A stretch of DNA of 51,307 bases from Saprospiraceae bacterium (GTDB lineage Bacteria > Bacteroidota > Bacteroidia > Chitinophagales > Saprospiraceae). The position numbers were made by a program, and so were the translations under genes. The notes beneath the pieces were generated by a model. That model had not been told where the DNA came from. It was given only the letters and a program-made list of their open reading frames with translations, and ran no database searches. Shown here one piece after another: positions 7,917 to 48,600 of the stretch (position 1 is the first letter of the stretch; each line of letters begins with the position of its first letter). The DNA is taken from positions 1 to 51,307 of the forward strand of contig JAHDGC010000001.1 of the NCBI GenBank assembly GCA_020627865.1, given 5' to 3'.

Positions 7917-8708
7917 CTACTCATCTCCATCACCGGCCAGCTCATCCAAAATCGCATCCTCGATATCATTCGCTTCTTTTTTCGTTGGAGATGTGGTCGT
8001 TACAACATCAGCCAATGCCCTTTGGCGACTTGCTTCCGAACTTAAATTCAGATGCTCCAGAAAGAGTTTCCTTGCAAAATACAAACTAATTAATAACACA
8101 ACGCACGCAAGAATGATCAAGGCATCAAAATATAGTTGAAGGATGAAAAAATCATAGAGGCCATGCACGAGGACAGCAAAACCTAAACCCTGGAGCAAGT
8201 ACCGATTTCGGAGCTTCCGGTTGAAGCGAGCTAGCCCGATGTAGTAACCAGAAATCACTGCGAAGGCGGCATGTGCAGGGACTGCCGTAAATGCCCTGAC
8301 CACTAATGTTGCGGCATCGAATTGTTGGGCATACCAGAGGTTTTCCACCGTAGCGAAGCCCATGCCTACCATAATGGCATACACAATACCATCTAAAGGC
8401 TCGTTGAAAAACTTCTGTGGATAGGCATAAAAAATAACGCAAAAGAATTTAGCCACTTCCTCCACCAAGGCTACTGCCACAAAAGCTGTTGCCAGCAATA
8501 CAAAAAAGTTAAGGGATTCCTGAAAGCCAATGGCATCAAAGTAACCCTCAATGGCTTGGGCAGGTATCGTGATAACACAGCCCAATGCAAAAGAAAGGAG
8601 CAGGGGAAGCACGGGTTCCTTATCAAATTTATCCAGTTTATAAATGAAAAACGCGATAAGCAAGCCCGGGATGATGGCCAATATGCTGAGGGGGATATTC
8701 ATCGACAA
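7917..8708 (-). CDS. prsW: PrsW family intramembrane metalloprotease
   Basis: A 263-residue polytopic membrane protein of the PrsW/CPBP (ABI) glutamic-metalloprotease superfamily. Diagnostic motifs: EEVAKFF with the catalytic Glu pair, GFATVENLWY, a PAHAAFAV segment with a metal-binding His, and HGLYDFF with another. PrsW in Bacillus cleaves an anti-sigma factor; here the substrate is unknown. The C-terminal about 40 residues are soluble and acidic, ending LAGDGDE. It is the last gene of a three-gene minus-strand unit, 37 bp downstream of the alpha/beta hydrolase gene. It converges on the MazG-like gene across about 200 bp of AT-rich sequence in which I see no gene. Confidence 0.9.
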   Translation of the reverse strand: MSMNIPLSILAIIPGLLIAFFIYKLDKFDKEPVLPLLLSFALGCVITIPAQAIEGYFDAIGFQESLNFFVLLATAFVAVALVEEVAKFFCVIFYAYPQKFFNEPLDGIVYAIMVGMGFATVENLWYAQQFDAATLVVRAFTAVPAHAAFAVISGYYIGLARFNRKLRNRYLLQGLGFAVLVHGLYDFFILQLYFDALIILACVVLLISLYFARKLFLEHLNLSSEASRQRALADVVTTTSPTKKEANDIEDAILDELAGDGDE

Positions 8709-8745: not shown

Positions 8746-9567
8746 TCAAGTGACTTTAGCGTTTTCTTTAATATGATAAACTTTACAAAATTCAAGGAAA
8801 TCTTTCAATACCTTGGTACATTTTTTAGGATGTTCGAACATACCCATATGACCCACTTTTTCTAACAAGGCAATGGAAGAAATGTTCGGGTAATTTATGG
8901 CACCCATACTTTGCTTTTTGCCCACAATTTGATCTGCTGCTCCAACAATAAAAAGCACAGGAATATCTAAATTCTTTAACAAAACTGACCTATCCTTTCT
9001 TTGCATCATGGCCTTCAGGGCAGCTATAATATTTTCAGAAGGCAGTTTATTAGCAGCATGCGTGAGTTTTTCTATTAAGAAAGCATTGCTTCCCGCAAAG
9101 TTTTTGGTAAAAAGTGCGGGAAAAAGCTGTTTTAGATAAAGCTGAGGTCTATGTCTTTGGATAAAATCCATACTCTTTTGCCGATAAATCTTATTCTGAG
9201 GTTCATCAGCGTAAGGATGAGAATGGAATAAAACCAAGCTTTCTACATAAGCTTTATATCGCTCTAGAAAAGCAAGGGCCACATATCCACCCATAGAATG
9301 CCCGATGATAGTGGCATTTTTTACATCTAATTCATCCAATACGGCTTTTACAGCATCTGCCATATGCGCTATAGATAAACTTTCTGGCAAAGTAGATTGT
9401 CCAAAACCGGGTAAGTCTATTCGTATGGTTTTGTAACCGTCGAATCTTTTGACAAAATCGTCCCAAACATGTAGGTTTTCACAAAAGCCATGAAGAAAAA
9501 CCAATGTTTTCCCTTTTCCGGTAGTTTCAAAAGCGATTTCTCCTTGATTGTAATTGATAAAGCTCAT
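8746..9567 (-). CDS. Alpha/beta fold hydrolase
   Basis: A 273-residue soluble serine hydrolase of the alpha/beta fold. The oxyanion region is FLHGFCEN (about residues 24-31), the nucleophile elbow GHSMGG places Ser91, and the rest of the triad is probably Asp212 (GAADQIVG) and His240 (VGHMGMFEHP). The cap region spans about 120-195. Members of this subgroup include esterases, epoxide hydrolases and MenH-like enzymes, and the substrate cannot be assigned. It sits between the QTMAN-like glycosyltransferase (20 bp upstream) and PrsW (37 bp downstream), so the three are almost certainly one transcript. Confidence 0.9.
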   Translation of the reverse strand: MSFINYNQGEIAFETTGKGKTLVFLHGFCENLHVWDDFVKRFDGYKTIRIDLPGFGQSTLPESLSIAHMADAVKAVLDELDVKNATIIGHSMGGYVALAFLERYKAYVESLVLFHSHPYADEPQNKIYRQKSMDFIQRHRPQLYLKQLFPALFTKNFAGSNAFLIEKLTHAANKLPSENIIAALKAMMQRKDRSVLLKNLDIPVLFIVGAADQIVGKKQSMGAINYPNISSIALLEKVGHMGMFEHPKKCTKVLKDFLEFCKVYHIKENAKVT

Positions 9568-9587: not shown

Positions 9588-10709
9588 TTACAAGTTCGTG
9601 GGGCTGTACACAAGTTCTTCTAGTGTATGATCATATATGGCGGCTAAATTACTCCAATCATATCGGCTAACAAAATGATAACAGGATTTATAACGAATTT
9701 TTTCAATATTTAAAATTACATTTTTTAAAATCTGGTAGCATTGTTCATCTGTTTGATAAAGATGATTTTTGTGCAGATCATAGGGAATATGCTCTGGATA
9801 AGCCAACCTTTCCGGTAAAATCGGGTAACAACCTGCGGCAATAGCTTCAACAATACTGCCACCAAAAAAATCCTGAATGGAACAGACTGGAAGAATATCA
9901 GCTTGGCAAATCAAGCTTTCGTAGGCTTGTTTGCTTTCTGCAAAGCCAAAATGCAACACTTTATTACCCAATTTCTCCCTCGCCAGATCAAAAACGGGTG
10001 GTTGTTTAGCGTAAGCTTTTCCCAATATAATAACCTTAAAATCAATAGCTTCATCTTGCAGTCTAAACAGGTGATGGAAAAAAGTATCCGGATTTTTATC
10101 GTATTCCCATCGGTGGTTCCAGAATAAAACTGCCGAACCTTCTTTTTTCAGTTTGGGCATTTCGGAAAGGTGTTTCAAGTGCATGCCTAATGGAAGTACT
10201 TTACTTTTTCGGGTTATTTGATCTATGGTATGCAGTTCTTGGTGATCCGGGAATTGTTTTAAAAATTGGGGAAGGGCAGAGAGAAAAGAATTTTTATGGT
10301 AATGAGAATTAAATAACACCAAATTTGCCGCCAAAGCTGAACTATAGTTGATAAAAGCATAATGGTTGTCCCGCTTCAAGCGGGTATCTTTATCGGTCGG
10401 AGACCAAGGGTAGGTGAGCTGGTTTTCGTGACAGTAAAGCGCAAGCCTACATTTTGGAGACAAATGGTTTCTAGTGAGGCCAAGAAATACATTAAGATCT
10501 AGCATGTCGGTGGCTAGGATCAGATCAGGCTGATACTTTTTTGAGGTAAATAAGTTGGCTAAACGAACAGCTCCGCCATGCATTCGCCATTTCCAGTGCC
10601 GACCTTCCAACGATAGGATATGGACATCATGTTTGGAAGATTGTTGGAATCCATCAGCCCAAAGTTTGTGGCTACCTGTATAAAAAGGTTCCAAAAGGAG
10701 GATTTGCAT
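9588..10709 (-). CDS. tRNA-queuosine alpha-mannosyltransferase-like (QTMAN/GTDC1) glycosyltransferase
   Basis: A 373-residue GT4-type glycosyltransferase. The N-terminal about 165 residues match the DUF3524/GTDC1 signature as I know it from the animal enzyme: LLEPFYTGSHKLWADG, GRHWKWRM, then CHENQLTYPW and LVLFNSHYHKNSFL. The C-terminal nucleotide-sugar half has HRWEYDKNPDTFF and GGSIVEAIAAGCYP with the conserved Glu. Animal QTMAN transfers mannose from GDP-mannose to queuosine-34 of tRNA-Asp. Bacterial members share the fold and motifs, but their acceptor is less established. It is the first gene of the minus-strand unit with an alpha/beta hydrolase and PrsW. A TATATTTG -7 box precedes it. 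Confidence 0.85.
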   Translation of the reverse strand: MQILLLEPFYTGSHKLWADGFQQSSKHDVHILSLEGRHWKWRMHGGAVRLANLFTSKKYQPDLILATDMLDLNVFLGLTRNHLSPKCRLALYCHENQLTYPWSPTDKDTRLKRDNHYAFINYSSALAANLVLFNSHYHKNSFLSALPQFLKQFPDHQELHTIDQITRKSKVLPLGMHLKHLSEMPKLKKEGSAVLFWNHRWEYDKNPDTFFHHLFRLQDEAIDFKVIILGKAYAKQPPVFDLAREKLGNKVLHFGFAESKQAYESLICQADILPVCSIQDFFGGSIVEAIAAGCYPILPERLAYPEHIPYDLHKNHLYQTDEQCYQILKNVILNIEKIRYKSCYHFVSRYDWSNLAAIYDHTLEELVYSPTNL

Positions 10710-33653: not shown

Positions 33654-36600
33654 ATGAAATTTAATGTTTATTCTCCAATGTTAAAAGGTTTATTCCGATG
33701 CAAAAAAGTAGGCAGATATTTTGCCTGGCTTTTGTTGTTTCTCACCTTTATGGAAGCTGAAACACTTTTTGCGAACACAATGTTGTGTGACTCTGAAAAT
33801 GAGTTTCTTGTTGATACAAAAAGTAGGGATTTAGAGCGATGGTGCTGGAGTAATAAAAACGATTATAGTAGTGAAAAAATGACTTCCTCTGTTGGTCCTC
33901 CCTTAATTATTACTGGGAATACCCTCGTGATTCTTGAGAATTCTTCGGGGGTTATCCATAATGTGGAAACTATTGATGAGGATAGCGAAGGGGCTGGAAC
34001 ATTACTCTACAGTCTTATTGGTTCTATAGATGATGCGTTATTCACTATAGAGCCTAATTCCGGTCAGATCACTTTTATTACGCCTCCGAACTATGAAGAT
34101 CCGCAGGATGTTGGTTTGGATAATGTGTACAACTTTGAAGTAGAGGTTTGTGATACGGAATCACTCTGTGCACAACAATCTATTCAGATCACTATTTTTG
34201 ATGTGGATGAAGATCAGGATGGCGTCAAGGGGGCTGGAGAGCCGGATGATGAAGATCCGTGTGTTCCGGGTCTTTACAATGTATCCTCAGTTGATTGTGA
34301 TGGGGATGGATTGACAAATGGAGAAGAGGATACCAATGGTGACCAGTCTTGTAGTGTGGGAGAAACCTGTGCTGACAACCCTGATATGGATAACGATGGG
34401 TTTAATGATGGTCTAGAGGTACTAGGGCCAGATGGAGATGCTGCAACAACGGCAGATAATTCTGACCCATTTGATCCATGTGATCCGAGTCCTTATGCTG
34501 TTGCTACTGGTGATTGTGATGGAGATGGTTTAACGAATGGGGATGAGGATGCGAATGGAAATGGTATTTGTGATGCAGGAGAAACTTGTGCTGATAATCC
34601 GGATACAGATGGCGATGGCATTAATGATGGGACAGAAGTCACAAATGGAACTAATCCACTTGATCCTTGTGACCCAAGTGCATATGCAGTTGCTACAGGT
34701 GATTGTGATGGAGACGGCTTAAGTAATGCAGAAGAAGATGTGGATGGCAATGGTATTTGTAATGGAACAGAAACCTGCGCCGATAATCCAGATATGGATA
34801 ATGATGGTTTTAATGACGGATTAGAGATAAATGGTGCGGATGGTATACCAAACTCTGGAGATGAGTCTGACCCACTTGATCCTTGTGATCCGAGTTTGCT
34901 ATCCAATCCTGGTGGGGATTGTGATAATGATGGTTTGACAAATGGTACTGAAGATGCTAACAACAATGGTATCTGCGATGCAGGAGAAACCTGTGCGAAT
35001 AATCCAGATACGGATGGTGATGGCATTAACGATGGATTAGAGGTCGGTAATGGAACTGACCCGCTTGATCCTTGCGATCCAAATCCATACGCAATAGGAG
35101 CGAATGACTGTGATGGAGATGGTTTGACAAATGCAGAGGAAGATACGGATGGTAATGGCATTTGTAATGGAACAGAAACTTGTGCGGATAATCCCGATAT
35201 GGATGGCGATGGCTTTTTAGATGGAAATGAAGCCACCAATGGAAGCGATCCTTACGATCCTTGTGATCCTGATCCATATGCTGTTGGTAGTAATGATTGT
35301 GATAATGATGGTTTGACCAATGCTCAAGAAGATGCTAATAATAGTGGCTTTTGTGATGGCACAGAAACCTGTGCCAATAATCCAGATATGGACAACGATG
35401 GTATTAATGACGGTACTGAAGTAGGTAATTTTACCGATCCACTTGATCCTTGTGATCCGAATCCTTATGCAATAGGGACAAATGATTGCGATGGTGATGG
35501 CTTGACAAATGCACAAGAAGATACCAATGGAAATGGTATTTGTGACGGCACGGAAACCTGTGCAAATAATCCAGATATGGATGGGGATGGTTTTAATGAT
35601 GGAAACGAGGTTACTAATGGTACTGATCCTTTTGATCCTTGTGATCCGAATCCTTATGCTTTACCATCAGGCGATTGTGATGGAGATGGTTTGACAAATA
35701 GTATAGAGGATGCAAATGGTAATAATTTTTGTGATCCATTAGAAACCTGCGTTGATAATCCAGATACGGATGGCGATGGTGTGCAAGATGGAGCTGAAGT
35801 CGGGAGTGGAACTGATCCACTTGATCCTTGTGATCCAAGCCCTTATGCTATAGGTACTGGGGATTGTGATAATGACGGTTTGACAAACGCGGAGGAAGAT
35901 ACGAATGGAAACGGTATTTGTGATGGTTCAGAAACCTGTGCTGGTATACCTGATATGGATGGTGATGGTATTTTGGATGGTGTAGAGGTTGCCGATGGTA
36001 GCGATCCGCTAGATTCTTGTGATCCGAACCCTTATGCAATAGCAACAGATGATTGTGATAACGATGGTTTGACAGGTGCCGAGGAGGATACAAATGGTAA
36101 TGGTGTTTGTGATCCATTAGAAACTTGTGTGGATAATCCAGACATGGATGGTGATGGCTTTTTCGATGGTTTGGAAGTAAATGGCCAAGATGGCAACCCT
36201 GCTACTACAGCCGATAATTCAGATCCTTTCGATCCTTGTGATCCAAGCCCGTATGCAATCCCTAATAATGATTGTGACGGTGATGGTCTTACAAATGGCG
36301 AAGAGCTTGCTGCTGGGACTGATCCCCTAGATCCTGATACGGATGACGATGGTTTTGGGGATGAAATAGAAGTAGAAGGCCCGGATGGTGATCCTGCTAC
36401 TACTGCTGATAATACCGATCCTCTTAATCCTTGCGATCCCGATCCTTATGCTGTTCCGGGTGGTGATTGTGATAACGATGGCTTAACAAATGATGAGGAA
36501 GATGTCAATAACAATGGTATTTGTGATGGGACAGAAACCTGCGCAAATAACCCAGATATGGATGGTGATGGATATAATGACGGCCTTGAAGTTGGAGGAA

Positions 36601-39600
36601 TAGATGGAATTCCAGGTACATCAGCAGACAATTCAAACCCTTTGAATGCTTGTGATCCTGATCCTTATGCTATACCGGGGGGCGATTGTGATGGAGATGG
36701 CCTGACGAACGCAGAAGAGGATACCAATAACAATGGTAGTTGTAATTTGGGAGAAACTTGTGCGGATAATCCGGATATGGATGGCGATGGTTACAATGAT
36801 GGGGATGAAGTTAATAATATTGGTTCCAACCCTTTGAACCCCTGTGATCCAGATGTATATGCAGTTCCTACAAATGATTGTGATAACGATGGTATTCCAA
36901 ATGGCCTAGAGGATTTAAATAGTAATGGAACCTGTGATGTCAATGAAACTTGTGCAAATGATCCGGATACCGATGATGATGGTATCCCTGATGGAACAGA
37001 GGTAAACAATGGAACTGATCCACTTGATCCTTGTGATCCTAATCCGCTGGCTATCCCGACGAATGATTGTGATGGCGATGGCATGACAAACGAGGAGGAA
37101 GACTTGGCAGGAACTGATCCAACAAGTGCGGATACAGACGGTGATGGTATTGATGATATAGATGAAATAAATACTGGAACTGATCCCCTAGATGCTTGTG
37201 AGCCTAATGTTTATGCAATTCCGACAGGCGATTGTGATAACGACGGTATTCCAAATAGTATAGAGGATATTAACAACAATGGCGTTTGTGACGCCAATGA
37301 AACCTGTGCTGATAATCCAGATACAGATATGGATGGTTTGAGTGATGGTACAGAGTCTAATAATGGTAGTGATCCACTCGACCCTTGTGATCCGAATCCA
37401 AATGCTATACCTACAAATGATTGTGATAATGATGGCTTAACAAATGGAGAGGAAACGGCTATAGGAACCGACCCGCTCGATCCAGATACGGATAATGATG
37501 GCGTACCGGATGGTACTGAAGCTACCAATGGCAGCGATCCTTTAGACCCTTGTGATCCAGACCCTACTGCTATTGCCTCTGGGGATTGTGATAGTGATGG
37601 TTTGAGCAATGGTGATGAAGTTATTGCTGGCACAGATCCCGCAAATCCGGATACAGATGGCGATGGTATCTCTGACGGAATAGAAGTACCAAATGGTAGT
37701 AATCCGCTTGATCCTTGTAGTCCAAACCCAACAGCAATAGCCTCAAATGATTGTGATAATGATGGCTTACCCAATGGTGATGAAACCACTGCGGGTACTG
37801 ATCCTACTAATCCGGATACAGATGGAGATGGTGTCAATGATGGCGATGAGGTAACCAATGGCTCCGATCCATTAGATGCTTGTGACCCAGATGTATACGC
37901 TATTCCTTCTGCCGATTGTGATAATGATGGTATCATTAATGGACTGGAAGATTTGAATGGCAATGGAACCTGTGATGCGAATGAAACCTGTGCAGACGAT
38001 CCAGATACAGATGACGATGGTATCAATGATGGTGCGGAATCAAACAATGGAACCAATCCACTCGATCCTTGTGATCCAAATCCAGCAGCTATCGCAACCA
38101 ATGATTGCGATAATGATGGTTTAACCAATGGAGAGGAAACTACCGCTGGTACTGATCCAACAAATCCAGATACGGATGATGATGGTATTAACGATGGTGA
38201 TGAAGTAACGAATGGCAGTGATCCGCTTGATCCTTGTGACCCAGATGCTACGGCTATTGCGACAAATGATTGCGATAATGATGGTTTAACCAATGGAGAG
38301 GAAGTTACGGAAGGTACCGATCCTACCGTTCCAGATACGGATGGTGATGGTATTAGCGATGGGGATGAAGTAACCAATGGCAGTGATCCGCTCAATCCTT
38401 GTGATCCGAATCCAGCTGCTATTTCATCAAATGATTGTGATAACGACGGTATCATAAACGGTCTAGAAGACCTGAATGGCAATGGAACTTGTGATGCGAA
38501 TGAAACCTGTGCCGATGATCCCGATACGGATGATGATGGCCTCAACGATGGTTTAGAAGTTAGTAGTGGTAGCGATCCACTTGATCCTTGTGATCCGAAT
38601 CCAACAGCTATACCGACTAACGATTGTGATAATGATGGCCTTACCAATGGTGAGGAAGTCGTCGCAGGTACTGATCCCTCGGTACCGGATACGGACGGCG
38701 ATGGCATTAATGATAGTGATGAAATAACCAATGGTAGTGATCCGCTTGATTCTTGTGACCCAGATGCGTATGCTATAAGTTCAGAAGATTGTGATAATGA
38801 TGGTCTTACCAATGGTGCGGAAGACTTGAATGGTGATGGTCTCTGCGGTGCGAATGAAACTTGCGCAGACAATCCTGATACGGATGGTGATGGCATTAAT
38901 GATGGCTTGGAAGTTGCTAATGGTACTGATCCCCTCGATCCTTGTGATCCCAATCCGAATGCTATTCCAACCAACGATTGTGACGGTGATGGATTGACCA
39001 ATGGTGAAGAAATAACCAACGGTACCGATCCTACTGTTTCTGATACGGATGGAGATGGTATAGATGATAGTGACGAGATTGCAAATGGTTCCGATCCGCT
39101 TGATGCTTGTGATCCAGACCCAACAACAGTAGCTACAGCTGACTGTGATAATGATGGGCTGACTAATGGCGAGGAGATCACCGAAGGTACTGACCCAACG
39201 AATCCCGATACAGATGGAGACGGTGTTCCTGATGGTACAGAGGTGACAAATGGCTCCGATCCGTTAGATGCTTGTGATCCAGACCCAACAGCAATCGCTA
39301 CAGCCGATTGTGATAATGATGGTTTAACCAATGGAGAAGAAATTACCAACGGTACTGATCCAACGGACTCAGATTCAGATGATGACGGTATTCCTGATGG
39401 TACAGAAGTAACAAATGGCAGTGATCCATTAGATGCTTGTGATCCAGATGTATATGCAGTTGCCACAGGCGATTGTGATAATGATGGTATCATCAATGGT
39501 TTAGAAGATTTAAACGGTAATGGCGTTTGTGATGCCAATGAAACCTGTGCCGACGATCCAGATACAGATGATGACGGTATCCCTGATGGCACGGAAGTCG

Positions 39601-42600
39601 CAACGGGTACTAATCCACTCGATCCTTGTGATCCAAACCCAACTGCAATCGCCACAGGGGATTGTGATAATGACGGTTTGACAAATGGTGATGAAACAAC
39701 CGCCGGTACCGATCCTGATAATCCGGATACGGATGGAGATGGCCTGAATGATGGCTTTGAGGTAACAAATGGCAGTGATCCATTAGATCCTTGTGACCCG
39801 AATGTGTATGCATCAAGTACAGGAGATTGTGATAACGATGGCCTGACGAATGGAGCAGAGGACTTAAATGCAAATGGTACTTGTGATGCCATAGAAACCT
39901 GTGCTGATAATCCAGATACCGATAGTGATGGTATTAATGATGGATTAGAAGTGACTAATGGTTCTGATCCGCTCGATCCTTGTGATCCGAATCCGAATGC
40001 CATTCCAACAAATGATTGTGATAATGATGGCCTGACGAATGGCGAAGAAGTAACCAATGGTACTGATCCAACTGTTGCCGATACCGATGGAGATGGTATC
40101 CCTGATGGTGATGAAATAACAAATGGTTCTGATCCGCTTGATGCTTGTGATCCTGTTCCAACGGTTGCAACAGCCGATTGTGATAATGATGGTTTGACCA
40201 ATGGCGAAGAAATAACCAACGGTACTGACCCAACTGTTCCAGATACCGACGGCGATGGTATTAATGATGGAATAGAAGTAACTAATGGCAGTGATCCATT
40301 GGATGCTTGTGATCCAAATCCTACAGCAATAGCTTCCAATGATTGTGATAATGATGGTTTGACCAATGGCGAAGAAGTAACCAACGGTACCGACCCAACT
40401 ATGGATGATACCGATGGTGATGGTATCTTGGATGGAGCAGAGGTTACCAATGGAACGGATCCTCTAGATGCTTGTGATCCGGATGTCTATGCAGTTTCTA
40501 CAGGAGATTGTGATAATGATGGAATCATTAATGGCTTGGAAGATTTGAATGGGAATGGCGTTTGTGATGCCGATGAGACTTGTGCCGATGATCCAGATAC
40601 GGATAACGATGGTATCAATGATGGCCTAGAGTTAGCAAATGGTAGTGATCCGCTTGATCCTTGTGATCCAGATGTTACCGCTGTTGCTACAGCCGATTGT
40701 GATAATGATGGCCTGAATAATGGTGACGAAACTACAAATGGTACAGACCCAACAACTCCCGATACGGATGGAGATGGTATCAATGATGGAACAGAAGTTG
40801 CCAACGGCAGCGATCCGCTAAATCCATGTGATCCAGATGTATATGCCGTTGCGAATGGAGATTGTGATAATGATGGTTTGATCAATGGCCTGGAAGATTT
40901 AAATGGTAATGGTGTTTGTGATGCTAATGAAACCTGTGCTGATGATCCAGATACGGATGATGATGGCGTTTCTGATGGAACAGAAAACAACATAGGTAGC
41001 GATCCATTGAACCCTTGTGACCCAGATGCCTCTGGAGATTTAGCAGGTGATTGCGATGGTGACGGTATTACAAATGGCGACGAGATCGTAGGGCCAGATG
41101 GCTTGCCAAATACCGGAGATGAATCTGATCCAAATAATCCTTGTGACCCAAGCGCATCTGGCCTTCCATTCGGAGATTGTGATGGCGATGGTATTACCAA
41201 CGGTGTTGAAATTACCAACGGTACTGATCCGGGCGACTCTTGCGATCCAAATCCAACAGCCTTATCAACCAATGATTGTGATAATGATGGCCTCACAACA
41301 AATGAGGAAGCAATCGCAGGTACTGATCCAACAAATCCAGATACGGATGGTGATGGACTTGGCGATGGTTCTGAAGTTGCTAACGGCAGCGATCCGCTCG
41401 ATCCTTGTGATCCGAATCCTAATGCTATAGCTACCGCTGATTGTGATAATGATGGCTTGACCAATGGAGAAGAAATCACTATAGGTTCTGATCCATTAAC
41501 ACCTGACACAGACGGAGATGGTTTGTTAGATGGGACGGAGGTAACAAATGGCAGCGATCCACTGAATCCTTGTGACCCAGATGTGTATGCTATTGGCACC
41601 AATGATTGTGATAACGACGGTATTATAAATAGCCTAGAGGATTTGAATAGCAATGGGGTCTGCGATGCTAACGAAACCTGTGCTGGCGACCCAGATACTG
41701 ATGACGATGGTATTAGTGATGGCCTTGAAGTTGCTAACGGAACTAATCCATTAAATCCTTGTGATCCGAATCCATATGCTATTCCAACCAACGATTGTGA
41801 TAATGATGGATTGACCAACGGGGATGAACTTACTGCCGGTACCAATCCTACTATACCGGATACAGATGGAGACGGCCTCCTTGATGGGGAGGAAGTTATC
41901 AACGGAAGTGATCCGCTTGATCCTTGCGACCCTGATGCTACAGCTATTGCTTCAAATGATTGTGACGGTGACGGCCTGACCAATGGTAATGAAATCATAA
42001 CAGGTACTGATCCGGGTAATCCAGATACTGATGGCGACGGTTTACTTGATGGAAACGAGGTCAATAACGGTACTAATCCACTGAACCCTTGTGATCCAAA
42101 CCCGAACGCCGTACCAGGGAATGATTGTGACAATGACGGTTTGACCAACAGTGAAGAAGTTACTACGGGTACTGATCCTACGGTTGCCGATACGGATGGC
42201 GATGGTATTAATGATGGGACAGAGATAAGTGATGGAAGTGATCCATTGGATAGTTGTGACCCAGATGCTTATGCTATCGCAACCAATGATTGTGATAATG
42301 ACGGTATCATTAGCGGCCTTGAAGATCTAAATGGAAATGGCGTATGTGATGCTAATGAAACCTGTGCCAATGATCCGGATACCGATGATGATGGTATCAA
42401 TGATGGCACGGAGATAGCCAATAATACAAATCCCCTAGATCCTTGTGACCCGAATCCTAATGCTATTCCTACCAATGATTGTGATAATGATGGGCTTACA
42501 AATGGTGATGAAATAGCCAATGGTACCATCCCTACAGACCCAGATACGGATAATGATGGTATCAATGATGGTACAGAAGTGGTAAATGGTAGTGACCCGC

Positions 42601-45600
42601 TTGATCCTTGCGATCCAGATCCAACATCACTGGCCAGCAATGATTGTGATAACGATGGGCTTACGAATACAGAAGAAATTATTGCAGGAACAGACCCAAC
42701 CGTGACGGATACGGATGGTGACGGCATCCCTGATGGTGTAGAAATTAATAATGGCAGCGATCCTTTAAATCCTTGTGATCCGAATGTGAGCGGAATTTCT
42801 ACTAATGATTGTGATAACGATGGCCTGACCAATGGAGAAGAAGTAACAATAGGTACTGATCCTGCCGTAGCAGATACGGATGGAGATGGATTGTTAGATG
42901 GCGTAGAGGTCGATAATGGTAGTAATCCGCTCAATGCTTGTGATCCCAATGTATATGCAGTTTCTACGGGCGATTGTGATAATGATGGAATCATCAATGG
43001 GCTAGAAGACCTCAACGGGAATGGAGCCTGTGATGCAGGAGAAACCTGTGCAAATGATCCAGATACCGATGATGATGGCATTTCTGATGGTTCTGAATTG
43101 AATAATGATAGCGATCCGCTCGATCCTTGCGATCCAAGTGTACTCGCAGTTCCCACTGGGGATTGTGATAATGACGGCCTCTCAAACGGGGATGAAGTGA
43201 TTGCAGGTACAGACCCAACTATAAGGGATACGGATGGCGATGGCTTATATGATGGCGTGGAGGTTACCAACGGTTCCGATCCGCTCGATCCTTGTGACCC
43301 AGATGTATATGCTACTAATAATGGTGATTGTGATAACGATGGTATTACAAATGGACTAGAAGACTTGAACGGTAACGGCATGTGCGATGCTAATGAAACC
43401 TGTGCTGACGATCCAGATACCGATGACGATGGTATTTCGGATGGATCTGAAACCACTGCCGGCAGTGATCCGCTCAATGCTTGCGACCCGAATGCTTCTG
43501 GCGATCCAACAGGAGACTGCGACGGGGATGGCCTAACCAATCAAGAGGAAATCTTAGGAACGGATGGCGTTGCCAATACTGGGGATGAATCTGATCCAAA
43601 CGATCCTTGTGACCCAAGTGCTATCGGCCTCCCATTCGGAGATTGTGACGGTGATGGTATTCCTAATGGTGTTGAAATAACAAATGGCACCGATCCTGGA
43701 GATTCCTGCGATCCGAATCCTATTGCTTTGCCGACCAATGATTGTGATAATGACGGTTTAACAACTACGGAGGAAAATATTGCAGGAACAGACCCGACAA
43801 ATCCAGATACCGATGGAGATGGCTTGGGGGATGGCTCAGAAGCTCTTAATGGATATGATCCTCTTGATCCTTGTGACCCGAACCCCGGAGCAATTCCTAC
43901 AGGTGATTGTGATAATGATGGATTATTGAATGGGGAGGAAATCACTAACGGTACTGATCCGAGTGTGCCGGATACAGACGGAGATGGACTGTTGGACGGA
44001 GAAGAGGTTGCTAATGGAAGTAATCCGTTAAATGCTTGCGATCCGGATGTATATGCAGTTGCTACAGGCGATTGTGATAATGATGGCCTTATCAACGGTC
44101 TGGAGGATTTAAATGGAGACGGCTCTTGCGATGCTAACGAAACCTGTGCCAATGATCCTGATTCTGATGATGATGGCCGCTCGGATGGGGTGGAAATCAG
44201 CAATGGAACCGACCCGCTTGATCCCTGCGACCCGAATCCTAATGCTATTGCAACCAACGATTGCGATAATGATGGACTTACCAATGGGGATGAAAACATT
44301 GTAGGCACAGACCCAACCGACGCAGATACAGATGGAGATGGCCTGTTAGATGGGGCAGAGGTGGCCAATGGTAGCGATCCACTAAATTCTTGTGATCCCA
44401 ACCCTGTTGCGATAATCAGCAATGATTGTGATAACGATGGCCTGACCAATGGTACAGAGATTAATGTAGGAACTGACCCAACTGATCCAGATACGGATGG
44501 GGATGGTTTGTCTGATGGTATAGAAGTCAATAATGGTACGGAGCCATTAGATCCCTGTGATCCGAATCCGCTCGCTATTGCTGGAAATGATTGTGATAAT
44601 GACGGCTTGACTAATGGCGATGAAGTAACGGAGGGAACTAATCCCACCGTAGCTGATACAGATGGGGATGGCATTCCTGATGGTGCAGAAGTAACCAATG
44701 GTACTGATCCGCTTGATGCTTGCGATCCGGATGTATATGCTGTTGCTACAGCAGATTGCGACAATGATGGTATCATTAATGGCTTGGAAGATTTGAATGG
44801 TAATGGCATCTGCGATGGTGCAGAGACCTGTGCGGATGATCCAGATACGGATGATGATGGTAGAAATGACGGTCTGGAAGTGAATAATGGTACGAATCCG
44901 CTTGATCCTTGTGATCCGAATCCGGCCGCTATCCCAACCAATGACTGCGATAACGATGGCTTGAACAATGGCGATGAAGTTGCCACAGGCACAAATCCAC
45001 TAGATCCAGATACAGACAACGACGGTATCAATGATGGTACTGAAGTCGCTACTGGAAGCGATCCGCTTGATCCTTGTAGCCCGAATCCTAACTCATTACC
45101 TACCAACGATTGTGATGTTGACGGTCTGGTGAATAGCGATGAAATTATCATTGGAACCAATCCTTCCAATCCTGATACGGATGGTGATGGCATTACAGAT
45201 GGGAATGAAGTGGCTACTGGTAGTGATCCGCTCGATCCATGTGATCCTGATCCTACAGCTATCTTGACCACTGATTGTGATAATGATGGCTTGACCAATG
45301 GTGAGGAAATTGCTATTGGTACTGATCCGACCGATCCAGATTCCGATAATGATGGTGTCAATGATGGTGAGGAGATTATTGCTGGAACGGATCCGCTGAA
45401 TCCTTGTGGGCCTGATGTATATGCTGTGGCCACCAATGATTGTGATAATGATGGTATCATCAACGGTCTGGAAGATTTGAATGGTAATGGTCTTTGTGAT
45501 CCTGGGGAAACCTGTGCAGATGATCCAGATACCGATGATGACGGATTAAGTGATGGACTAGAAATTAATACTGGAACTGATCCTTTAGACCCATGTGATC

Positions 45601-48600
45601 CGAATCCAACAGCCATTTTGACTGGCGATTGTGATAATGATGGTCTTACAAATGGGGATGAACTCGTGGAAGGAACCGATCCACTAAATCCAGATACGGA
45701 TGGCGATGGTTTCAATGATGGTACAGAGGTTACCAATGGAACTAATCCTTTGGATTGTTGTGATCCGGATGTTTATGCTGTAGATGCGGCAGATTGTGAT
45801 AATGATGGTATCATCAATGGTTTAGAGGACTTAAACGGAAATGGTATTTGTGACGCCGGTGAAACTTGTGCAGGAAATCCGGATACGGATGGTGATGGCA
45901 TCAGTGATGGAGCAGAGGTAGCAGCCGGTAGTGATCCTTTGGATTCTTGTGATCCAAATTCTTCTGGTGATCCTCAAGGCGATTGTGACGGTGACGGACT
46001 GACAAATGAGGAGGAGATCCTAGGAACGGATGGTATTGCCAATACGGGAGATGAATCTGATCCAAACGATCCTTGTGATCCAAGTGCTATCGGTCTTCCT
46101 TTTGGAGATTGTGACGGTGACGGTATTACCAATGGTGATGAAATCGCTAATAATACTGATCCGGGTGATTCTTGTGATCCAAATCCAACAGCATTAGCGA
46201 CGGATGATTGTGATGGCGATGGCCTAGATACATCTGAGGAGGCAATTGCGGGCACTGACCCAACAGACCCTGATACTGATGGTGATGACTTAGGGGATGG
46301 TGCAGAAGTTGTTAGTGGAAGTGATCCTTTAGATCCATGTGATCCGAATCCAAATGCAATACCGACGAATGACTGTGATAACGATGGATTAATCAACGGT
46401 GATGAGGTTATGGCTGGCACCGATCCAATGAATCCAGATACGGATGGAGATGGCTTATCTGATAATACAGAGGTAATGGATGGTAGCAACCCGCTTGATC
46501 CATGTGACCCAGATGCTTATGCAATTCCTACTGGAGATTGTGATAACGATGGCATCATCAATGACTTGGAAGACCTGAATGGCAATGGCGTTTGTGATGC
46601 TGGTGAGACGTGTGCGGATGATCCAGATTCTGATGATGATGGTTTGAGTGATGGCCTTGAAATTACAGATGGTACTAATCCACTTGATCCTTGTGATCCA
46701 AATGTAACAGCCGTTCCGACGGATGACTGTGATAATGATGGCCTTTCTAATGGTGATGAGCTTACAGCCGGAACCGATCCGACTTCCCCCGATACGGATG
46801 GAGATGGTTTAACGGATGGTGAGGAAGTTGCCAATGGCTCTGATCCTTTGAATCCATGTGATCCAAATGCAACAGGCATCGCTACTGGAGATTGTGATAA
46901 TGACGGCTTGACTAACGGCACAGAAATCTTGATCGGAACGGATCCAACTGTGGCCGATACAGATCAGGATGGATTGCTAGATGGTACCGAGGTGAATGGT
47001 AATACTGATCCGCTTGACCCTTGTGATCCAGACCCGAATGCTATTCCTACAAACGATTGCGATGGTGATGGCTTGACTAATGGCGAGGAAGTAATCAATG
47101 GTACTGATCCTACAGAACCCGATACGGATGGCGATGGTGTTACGGATAGCGAAGAAGTTACTGATGGTAGCAATCCATTGAATCCTTGTGACCCGGATGC
47201 GTATGCTGTACCGACAGGCGATTGCGATAATGATGGTATTATCAATGGTCTTGAGGACTTGAACAGTAATGGTGTGTGTGATGCAACGGAAACTTGTGCT
47301 AATGATCCGGATACCGATGATGATGGCCTAAACGATGGTTTAGAAGTTAATAATGGTAGCGATCCGCTCGATCCTTGTGATCCGAATCCGGTTGCTATCC
47401 CAACCAACGATTGTGATAATGATGGTTTAGCCAATGGCGATGAAATAGATGAAGGTACTGATCCGACTGAACCCGATACGGATGGTGACGGCATCTCTGA
47501 TGGTGCGGAAATAATCAATGGTAGTGATCCATTGGATTCTTGTGATCCAAATGGTGTTGCTGTTGCCTCAGATGATTGCGATGATGACGGGCTTACAAAC
47601 GGTGATGAAATTGCTATCGGAACTGACCCTTCCGTAGCAGATACAGATGGAGATGGTATTTCCGATGGTGTGGAAAACACAAATGGAAGCGATCCGCTTG
47701 ATCCATGCGATCCGAATCCAGCCGCAATAGCCACCAATGATTGTGATAATGATGGACTTTCAAACGGTGATGAAGTAACTGCTGGTACCGATCCTACAGT
47801 ACAGGATACGGATGGAGATGGCTTGTTAGATGGTACGGAAGTTACCAATGGTAGTAATCCGCTAAATGCTTGTGATCCGGATGTATATGCTGTCGCAACA
47901 GGCGATTGTGATAACGATGGTATTATCAATGGCTTGGAAGATTTGAATGGTAATGGTGTCTGTGATACTGGTGAAACTTGTGCTGACGATCCAGATTCTG
48001 ACGACGATGGATTGAGTGATGGACTTGAACTCGATACGGGTAGTGATCCATTAGATCCATGTGATCCAGATATTACTGCTGTACCAACAAATGATTGTGA
48101 TAATGACGGCCTAGCAAATGGAGACGAAGTAGATGAAGGATCCGATCCAACTAATCCAGATACGGATGGAGATGGATTGTTGGATGGAACCGAAGTTAAC
48201 AATGGTAGTGATCCACTAAATCCTTGCGATCCGGATGCTTATGCGGTTGATGCGGTTGATTGTGATAATGATGGTATCATAAACGGGCTTGAGGATTTAA
48301 ATGGTAATGGCATCTGTGATGCAGGTGAAACTTGTGCCGACGATCCAGATACCGATGATGATGGCCTTTCTGACGGTATGGAAGTTGCCACAGGTAGTGA
48401 TCCACTTAACCCGTGTGATCCAAATGCAACAGGTGATCTGCTTGGAGATTGCGATGGTGATGGCCTTAACAATGGAGATGAAATCTTAGGGCCTGATGGT
48501 ATTGCCAACACCGGAGATGAATCTGATCCAAATGATCCTTGTGATCCAAGTGCAACAGGATTACCGCTTGGCGATTGTGATGGAGATGGCCTAACCAACG

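Follow-up and report, generated by a model that had tools for sequence, protein, structure and literature searches.

What would a bacterium do with a relative of the animal enzyme that decorates queuosine with a sugar? The question is raised by one gene of the window, the 51,307-nucleotide stretch of Saprospiraceae DNA analysed here. In animals, QTMAN puts alpha-mannose on the allylic hydroxyl of queuosine in tRNA-Asp, according to the available part of PMC12518689, where the purpose of the sugar on queuosine in animal tRNAs is described as unknown; the available part of PMC11705514, citing Zhao et al. 2023, equates QTMAN with GTDC1. The window gene and the domains and motifs that it encodes are as follows.

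9588..10709, (-) strand: QTMAN-family glycosyltransferase gene, intact ORF with an ATG start, 373 aa
10182..10706, (-) strand: QTMAN_N domain (PF12038), residues 2-176, 203 bits, 168/168 profile positions
9816..10151, (-) strand: Glycosyl transferases group 1 domain (PF00534), residues 187-298, 34.6 bits against a cut-off of 26.4
9846..9872, (-) strand: D280-x7-E288 in the place of the E-x7-E motif, from alignment conservation
10665..10691, (-) strand: motif EPFYTGSHK, residues 7-15, with S13 and H14 conserved
10407..10433, (-) strand: motif CHENQLTYP, residues 93-101, with H94 and E95 conserved
10284..10313, (-) strand: motif FNSHYHKNSF, residues 133-142, with F133, N134 and S135 invariant in alignment A2

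Family membership, active-site motifs and predicted fold

The three motifs that the original prediction had read in this open reading frame are all present in its translation, and the GTDC1/QTMAN signature that it placed in the N-terminal half is borne out by the full-length match to PF12038, whose score lies far above the cut-off of 25 bits. A profile search recovers the same domain in 50/50 rows of alignment A2, which comprises the window protein and 49 homologues from named genomes. Both S13 and H14 are conserved in 50/50 rows of A2, as are H94 and E95 and, in the C-terminal half, R200 and K205. In the more diverse alignment A1 (15 rows), S13 is retained in 15/15, H14 in 12/15, H94 in 14/15 and E95 in 12/15. 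Alignment position 280 is occupied by D or E in every row, while residue 288 is E in 15/15 rows of A1 and, in A2, E in 37/50, Q in 12/50 and G in 1/50.

We take R..K and E-x7-E to be the active-site motifs of GT4 and retaining GT-B enzymes, and R200, K205, D280 and E288 of the window protein fit them. Motif comparison on the sequence alignment finds the active-site residues of a GT4 enzyme, and the protein combines QTMAN_N with a C-terminal GT4-type domain. Judged by its sequence, the product of 9588-10709 is a member of the QTMAN family. We note that this family label is not new for a bacterial protein, since the Pfam domain is already named after QTMAN. The likeness to eukaryotic QTMAN (GTDC1), compared via the Pfam model, consists in a full-length PF12038 together with the GT4-type C-terminal domain; the window protein differs in its bacterial host, mannose on tRNA-Asp queuosine being a feature of the animal enzyme in the available part of PMC12518689.

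The rows of A2 with Q at the position of E288 are L138, L141, L142, L151, L157, L159, L160, L163, L168, L171, L173 and L191, and eight of these 12 come from Desulfuromonas or Geobacter kin. In these homologues, the replacement of E288 by Q could possibly go with a changed donor or rate. An Rfam and tRNA scan of the whole window returned no matches. Elsewhere in the window, 33654-51305 on the (+) strand is one uninterrupted open reading frame of at least 5884 aa that continues past the window's edge; it consists of degenerate repeats, with periods such as 165, 189, 354 and 378 bases, and thus encodes a giant repeat protein.

An AlphaFold2 model of the protein, built on 50 sequences, has a mean pLDDT of 93.3 and, in a structure search, matches GT-B/GT4 enzymes over residues 1-370. 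The best structural match is sucrose-phosphate synthase (Z 30.9, rmsd 3.2, 340 aligned), and the others include MshA (Z 30.0, rmsd 3.1, 333 aligned), BshA (Z 29.2, rmsd 2.9, 327 aligned), methylmannose mannosyltransferase (Z 29.2, rmsd 3.0, 327 aligned) and PimB' with GDP-Man (Z 26.9, rmsd 3.1, 325 aligned); tetrahydrobiopterin glucosyltransferase and PimA are also among the 50 structural matches listed. By prediction, the protein adopts a GT-B/GT4 fold. In the model, this GT-B fold is shared with MshA, BshA, PimA/PimB' and GlgM (Z 24.9-30.0, rmsd 2.9-4.1, 320-336 residues), enzymes that differ from the window protein in having other acceptors and are only 11-17% identical to it. Fold matches of such low identity leave the acceptor of the modelled protein unnamed. 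A sequence search with the single window sequence matched no PDB chain, and a profile search of the PDB found generic glycosyltransferases, with a best E of 4e-9 and covering the C-terminal half only; neither search found a solved structure of the QTMAN family itself.

Distribution and gene neighbourhoods

The QTMAN family is widespread in bacteria. PF12038 is found in 66/247 genomes sampled from the window's phylum and in 58/100 genomes sampled from its family, the host genome being included in both counts, and in 0/14 control genomes. A scan of named genomes yielded at least 573 stretches encoding a QTMAN relative, the best 80 of which include Saprospiraceae, Balneolaceae, Desulfuromonas and Geobacter kin, Marinimicrobia and KSB1, as well as a Calditrichota, Chloroflexi, an anammox planctomycete, Opitutales and Thermohalobacter. 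Among phages we found no full-length homologue, four phage records giving partial matches at 28% identity, and plasmids gave no QTMAN match.

Among the 66 genomes with QTMAN in the phylum sample, 15 carry two copies of the gene. All 15 belong to one family, assigned to Balneolaceae because the QueA place of G163 coincides with that of a named Balneola genome, and each of them has one copy scoring ~208-226 bits and another scoring ~164-176 bits against PF12038. The two kinds of copy, taken from different genomes, occupy different parts of the QTMAN tree, which was built by a quick method with SH-aLRT supports only and without L236 and L237. In several of the two-copy genomes, among them G026, G054, G163 and G191, the contig of the second copy also carries QueG, at a distance of 12-16 kb.

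In the window, the glycosyltransferase gene has the following neighbours.

8746..9567, (-) strand: alpha/beta hydrolase, 273 aa, PF00561 at 93.8 bits, 20 bp downstream of the glycosyltransferase gene
7917..8708, (-) strand: PrsW-like intramembrane protease, 263 aa, TTG start as listed, PF13367 at 125.1 bits, 37 bp past the hydrolase gene
from 10843, (+) strand, opposite to the glycosyltransferase gene: OppC-like peptide-transport permease, the upstream neighbour

The coupling to a hydrolase and a membrane protease that the original prediction described holds up, as the three genes share a strand, are separated by gaps of 20 and 37 bp, and encode proteins matching PF00561 and PF13367. Against the NCBIfam PrsW equivalog NF033739, the product of 7917-8708 scores 133.6 bits, below the cut-off of 225; the predicted protein is PrsW-like, not PrsW proper. 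The hydrolase of 8746-9567 reaches no curated NCBIfam cut-off among the 25 listed of 38 families, and BioH, MenH and PcaD were rejected as identities for it (92.6 vs 206.95, 87.8 vs 208.55 and 93.2 vs 255.85 bits, respectively).

The original prediction went further and suggested that the three genes serve an unrecognised pathway, to be checked by the conservation of their order. We compared 56 loci, one per genome, of which 42 belong to the window's family and 14 do not; three of 59 long loci (L077, L078 and L081) were left out, their glycosyltransferase ORF not having been recovered. The hydrolase stands at the +1 position in 17/42 loci of the window's family and in 0/14 of the others, and in L082, of the window's family, the contig ends where the +1 gene would stand. 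In a larger set of 139 loci, in which some genomes are represented twice, the hydrolase is at +1 in 33, with L156 as the single case outside the window's group. A common pathway would agree with the shared strand and narrow gaps, and with the recurrence of the complete order of glycosyltransferase, hydrolase and PrsW-like protease in 9/56 loci and in 17 of the 139 partly redundant ones. However, all nine loci belong to the window's family, 25/42 loci of that family and 14/14 of the others are without the hydrolase at +1, and other phyla give the QTMAN gene other partners; the suggested pathway is not supported by this distribution, and we consider it most improbable. The window's operon partners appear incidental because elsewhere the QTMAN gene stands with different ones, and the genes for the hydrolase and the PrsW-like protease probably just travel along in an operon particular to the lineage, incidental to the function of the glycosyltransferase.

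Across the loci, the recurrent neighbours of QTMAN vary with the lineage, and many of them are housekeeping genes. In L138, ispG lies upstream of the QTMAN gene, and downstream of it both L138 and L145 have a gene for a class II aminoacyl-tRNA synthetase with an editing domain, probably ProS. ORFs that we read by eye as smpB and tyrS recur near the gene in Marinimicrobia loci, mutL (read by eye) recurs beside it in Balneolaceae and is found again at L185, and nadB (also read by eye) is among the neighbours. In the loci examined, we saw no gene of an acceptor pathway that recurs next to QTMAN.

These neighbourhoods bear on whether the gene could belong to a surface polysaccharide or glycoprotein pathway, in which GT4 enzymes are common. 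Such an assignment, which we regard as very unlikely, can draw on a second GT4-like gene (identified by eye) that adjoins in cluster C13, at 5/56 loci, all of the window's family. Against it, no glycosyltransferase family appears among the 25 commonest of 124 Pfam families found in 115 neighbours at 39 loci, and the neighbours that do occur include ispG, the class II aminoacyl-tRNA synthetase and the smpB, tyrS, nadB and mutL read by eye. The neighbourhoods of QTMAN are more in keeping with a housekeeping role than with one in surface glycans.

Queuosine genes in genomes that carry QTMAN

Within the window's phylum sample, QueA is present in 245/247 genomes (65/66 of those with QTMAN), QueG in 233/247 (62/66) and QueH in 3/247, none of which has QTMAN; in G147, G195 and G199, QTMAN is present while QueG and QueH were not found. 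Because QueA and QueG are nearly universal there, their co-occurrence with QTMAN signifies compatibility, not association, and we discarded it as uninformative. Among 50 named QTMAN genomes of many phyla, picked for diversity among the best 80, QueA is found in 48, one of these matches being a 35-position fragment and one being broken by stops.

Queuosine genes do not cluster with QTMAN. A tblastn search of the flanks of the 139 loci for QueA, QueG, QueH, Tgt, QueD and a second TGT-like protein (described below) found a single case: in L067, QueG lies about 13 kb from QTMAN, many of the flanks searched being short. Queuosine genes were accordingly rejected as operon evidence.

Among the Chloroflexota, the queuosine pathway is variable. 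Here, QTMAN is present in 31/301 genomes (two of them with weak matches) and QueA in 189/301, and the two are anticorrelated, QueA occurring in 10/31 QTMAN genomes vs 179/270 others (Fisher p 3e-4). A plain correlation of QTMAN with QueA, reversed in this phylum, was consequently rejected as proof. In contrast, TGT, which inserts the base of queuosine or a precursor of it into tRNA, is present in 31/31 QTMAN genomes, the 21 QueA-less ones among them, vs 23/49 genomes with neither QueA nor QTMAN (49 of 91 such genomes were examined; Fisher p 6e-6, uncorrected for kinship). This p-value overstates the evidence, because the 21 QueA-less cases reduce to about two lineages when placed in the Tgt tree, one of 19 together with the QTMAN-less G403, and the other of G479 with G519. 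Two PF12038 matches, in G599 and G667, are weak (43-48 bits) and are possibly not genuine QTMANs; with both excluded, QueA is present in 8/29 and TGT in 29/29. In Chloroflexota, QTMAN thus tracks TGT and not QueA, on evidence that is correlational.

The specificity loops of these Tgts divide along the same line. According to the available part of PMC11570991, preQ1 TGTs carry GGLAVG, and queuine-salvaging TGTs typically GG[LS][AS]G. All ten Tgts from Chloroflexota QTMAN genomes with QueA have the loop GGL[AS]VGE, and eight of the ten have DEC, with DHV in G537 and G617. In the QTMAN genomes without QueA, the loop is shortened to GGSLG in all 21 Tgts, 19 of which have DEL for DEC and HGG for QGG. 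An insert of 18-32 residues follows DSGGFQVFSL in 21/21 of the QueA-less group (e.g., L255, L260 and L264) and in 0/10 of the QueA-bearing group. The likeness to Chlamydia-type queuine-salvaging TGTs lies in the altered specificity loop; GGSLG matches the motif GG[LS][AS]G given in the available part of PMC11570991 only partly, in an alignment that depends on gap placement, and the Chloroflexota proteins further differ in their DEL (19/21) and in their insert (21/21).

For comparison, 14 of the 23 Tgts from Chloroflexota genomes with neither QTMAN nor QueA were read: the loop is GGLAGDE in six, GGLSVGE-like in five, GIGDCLG in two and GGSLG in one, and the GIGDCLG and GGSLG proteins also have the insert. 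Since GGLAGDE fits the salvage motif, these six genomes indicate that queuine salvage is possible without QTMAN. In the QueA-less QTMAN genomes, the Tgt loop suggests the uptake of ready-made queuine, and the GGSLG Tgts with the insert possibly represent a new queuine-type Tgt or another 7-deazaguanine-type Tgt.

Putative function and the host genome

We think it rather probable that the window gene encodes a queuosine-tRNA glycosyltransferase, a retaining GT4-type enzyme of the QTMAN family. Its donor would be an activated sugar (GDP-mannose, if the analogy holds), which it would join by an alpha linkage to the cyclopentene-diol of the queuosine found at position 34 in at least one tRNA whose anticodon is GUN. 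Queuosine in tRNA is a moderately likely acceptor; we are less sure that the sugar is mannose, as the analogy with the animal enzyme suggests. The queuosine reading gains support from the Chloroflexota, because TGT occurs in every one of their QTMAN genomes and the loop types match. It is the best available reading, and it rests on co-occurrence in a few lineages. The original prediction of glycosylated queuosine in bacteria stands to the extent that QTMAN keeps company with queuosine machinery elsewhere; in the host itself the evidence is divided, with Tgt and QueD present while QueA, QueG and QueH were not found.

An unlikely alternative is that bacterial QTMANs glycosylate a small molecule or lipid (e.g., an MshA/BshA-like thiol precursor, a pterin or a phospholipid) and that only the eukaryotic branch acts on tRNA. 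It would account for nearest folds with other acceptors (sucrose-phosphate synthase, MshA, BshA, PimA/PimB' and tetrahydrobiopterin glucosyltransferase), for queuosine genes that are not adjacent to QTMAN, and for a host genome with no detectable QueA, QueG or QueH. Yet the 31/31 occurrence of TGT and the accompanying loop types are hard to explain with an unrelated acceptor, and the neighbours of QTMAN are lineage-specific, with no recurring acceptor-pathway gene seen among them.

Our literature search, which left most subscription journals outside its reach, found no report of a bacterial QTMAN enzyme or of a glycosylated-queuosine product, nor any of a coupling between QTMAN and Tgt; in PMC11703503, the phrase 'glycosylated queuosine' occurs in the reference list only. 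Beyond the window gene, it is conceivable, though we would stop short of calling it probable, that glycosyl-queuosine is widespread in bacteria and no peculiarity of animals, made in many phyla on queuosine synthesized de novo and, in some Chloroflexota, on queuine salvaged by a new subtype of Tgt with an altered pocket, and that the two Balneolaceae paralogs mark two tRNAs or use two sugars. If so, simple knock-outs in culturable bacteria would give access to the role of the sugar on queuosine, the modification would have to be added to tables of bacterial tRNA modifications, and one could ask where the animal enzyme came from. The association of QTMAN with Tgt instead of QueA also draws attention to bacteria that may depend on queuine obtained by salvage.

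The host genome itself complicates the queuosine reading. The original prediction had named the presence of tgt, queA and queG as a check, and the outcome is mixed. The host Tgt is canonical (TIGR00430, 503.6 bits against a cut-off of 306.75) with a preQ1-type loop, and QueD is present (TIGR03367, 105 bits against a cut-off of 89.25), while profile searches did not find QueA (two models), QueG or QueH in the assembly, which is 87.6% complete at 7.3 Mb in 997 contigs. With a preQ1-type Tgt and no QueA, the pathway would stop at preQ1, without a diol to glycosylate. The gene might then be a relic in this host, a transferase left without its acceptor after queuosine maturation was lost; we regard this as rather improbable. 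At this completeness, QueA and QueG would both be missed by chance with a probability of about 1.5% if the two are independent, but both genes are present in 5/5 other family members within the phylum sample, the assembly is incomplete and fragmented, and the QTMAN ORF is intact with its active-site residues conserved. Assembly gaps are the simplest explanation for the missing QueA and QueG.

We also note some peculiarities among the Tgt proteins. The host Tgt (L111:135-1268) has a serine at the third cysteine of the zinc-site motif (CSCRTS), where the other aligned Tgts have cysteine, and the Tgt of G631 is without the zinc-site motif. On contig C317 of the host genome, L110:3898-4956 encodes a short archaeosine-type TGT-like protein (TIGR00432, 240 bits vs a cut-off of 350), whose best PDB match is the archaeosine TGT 1iq8; a QueD (1831-2205) lies on the same contig.
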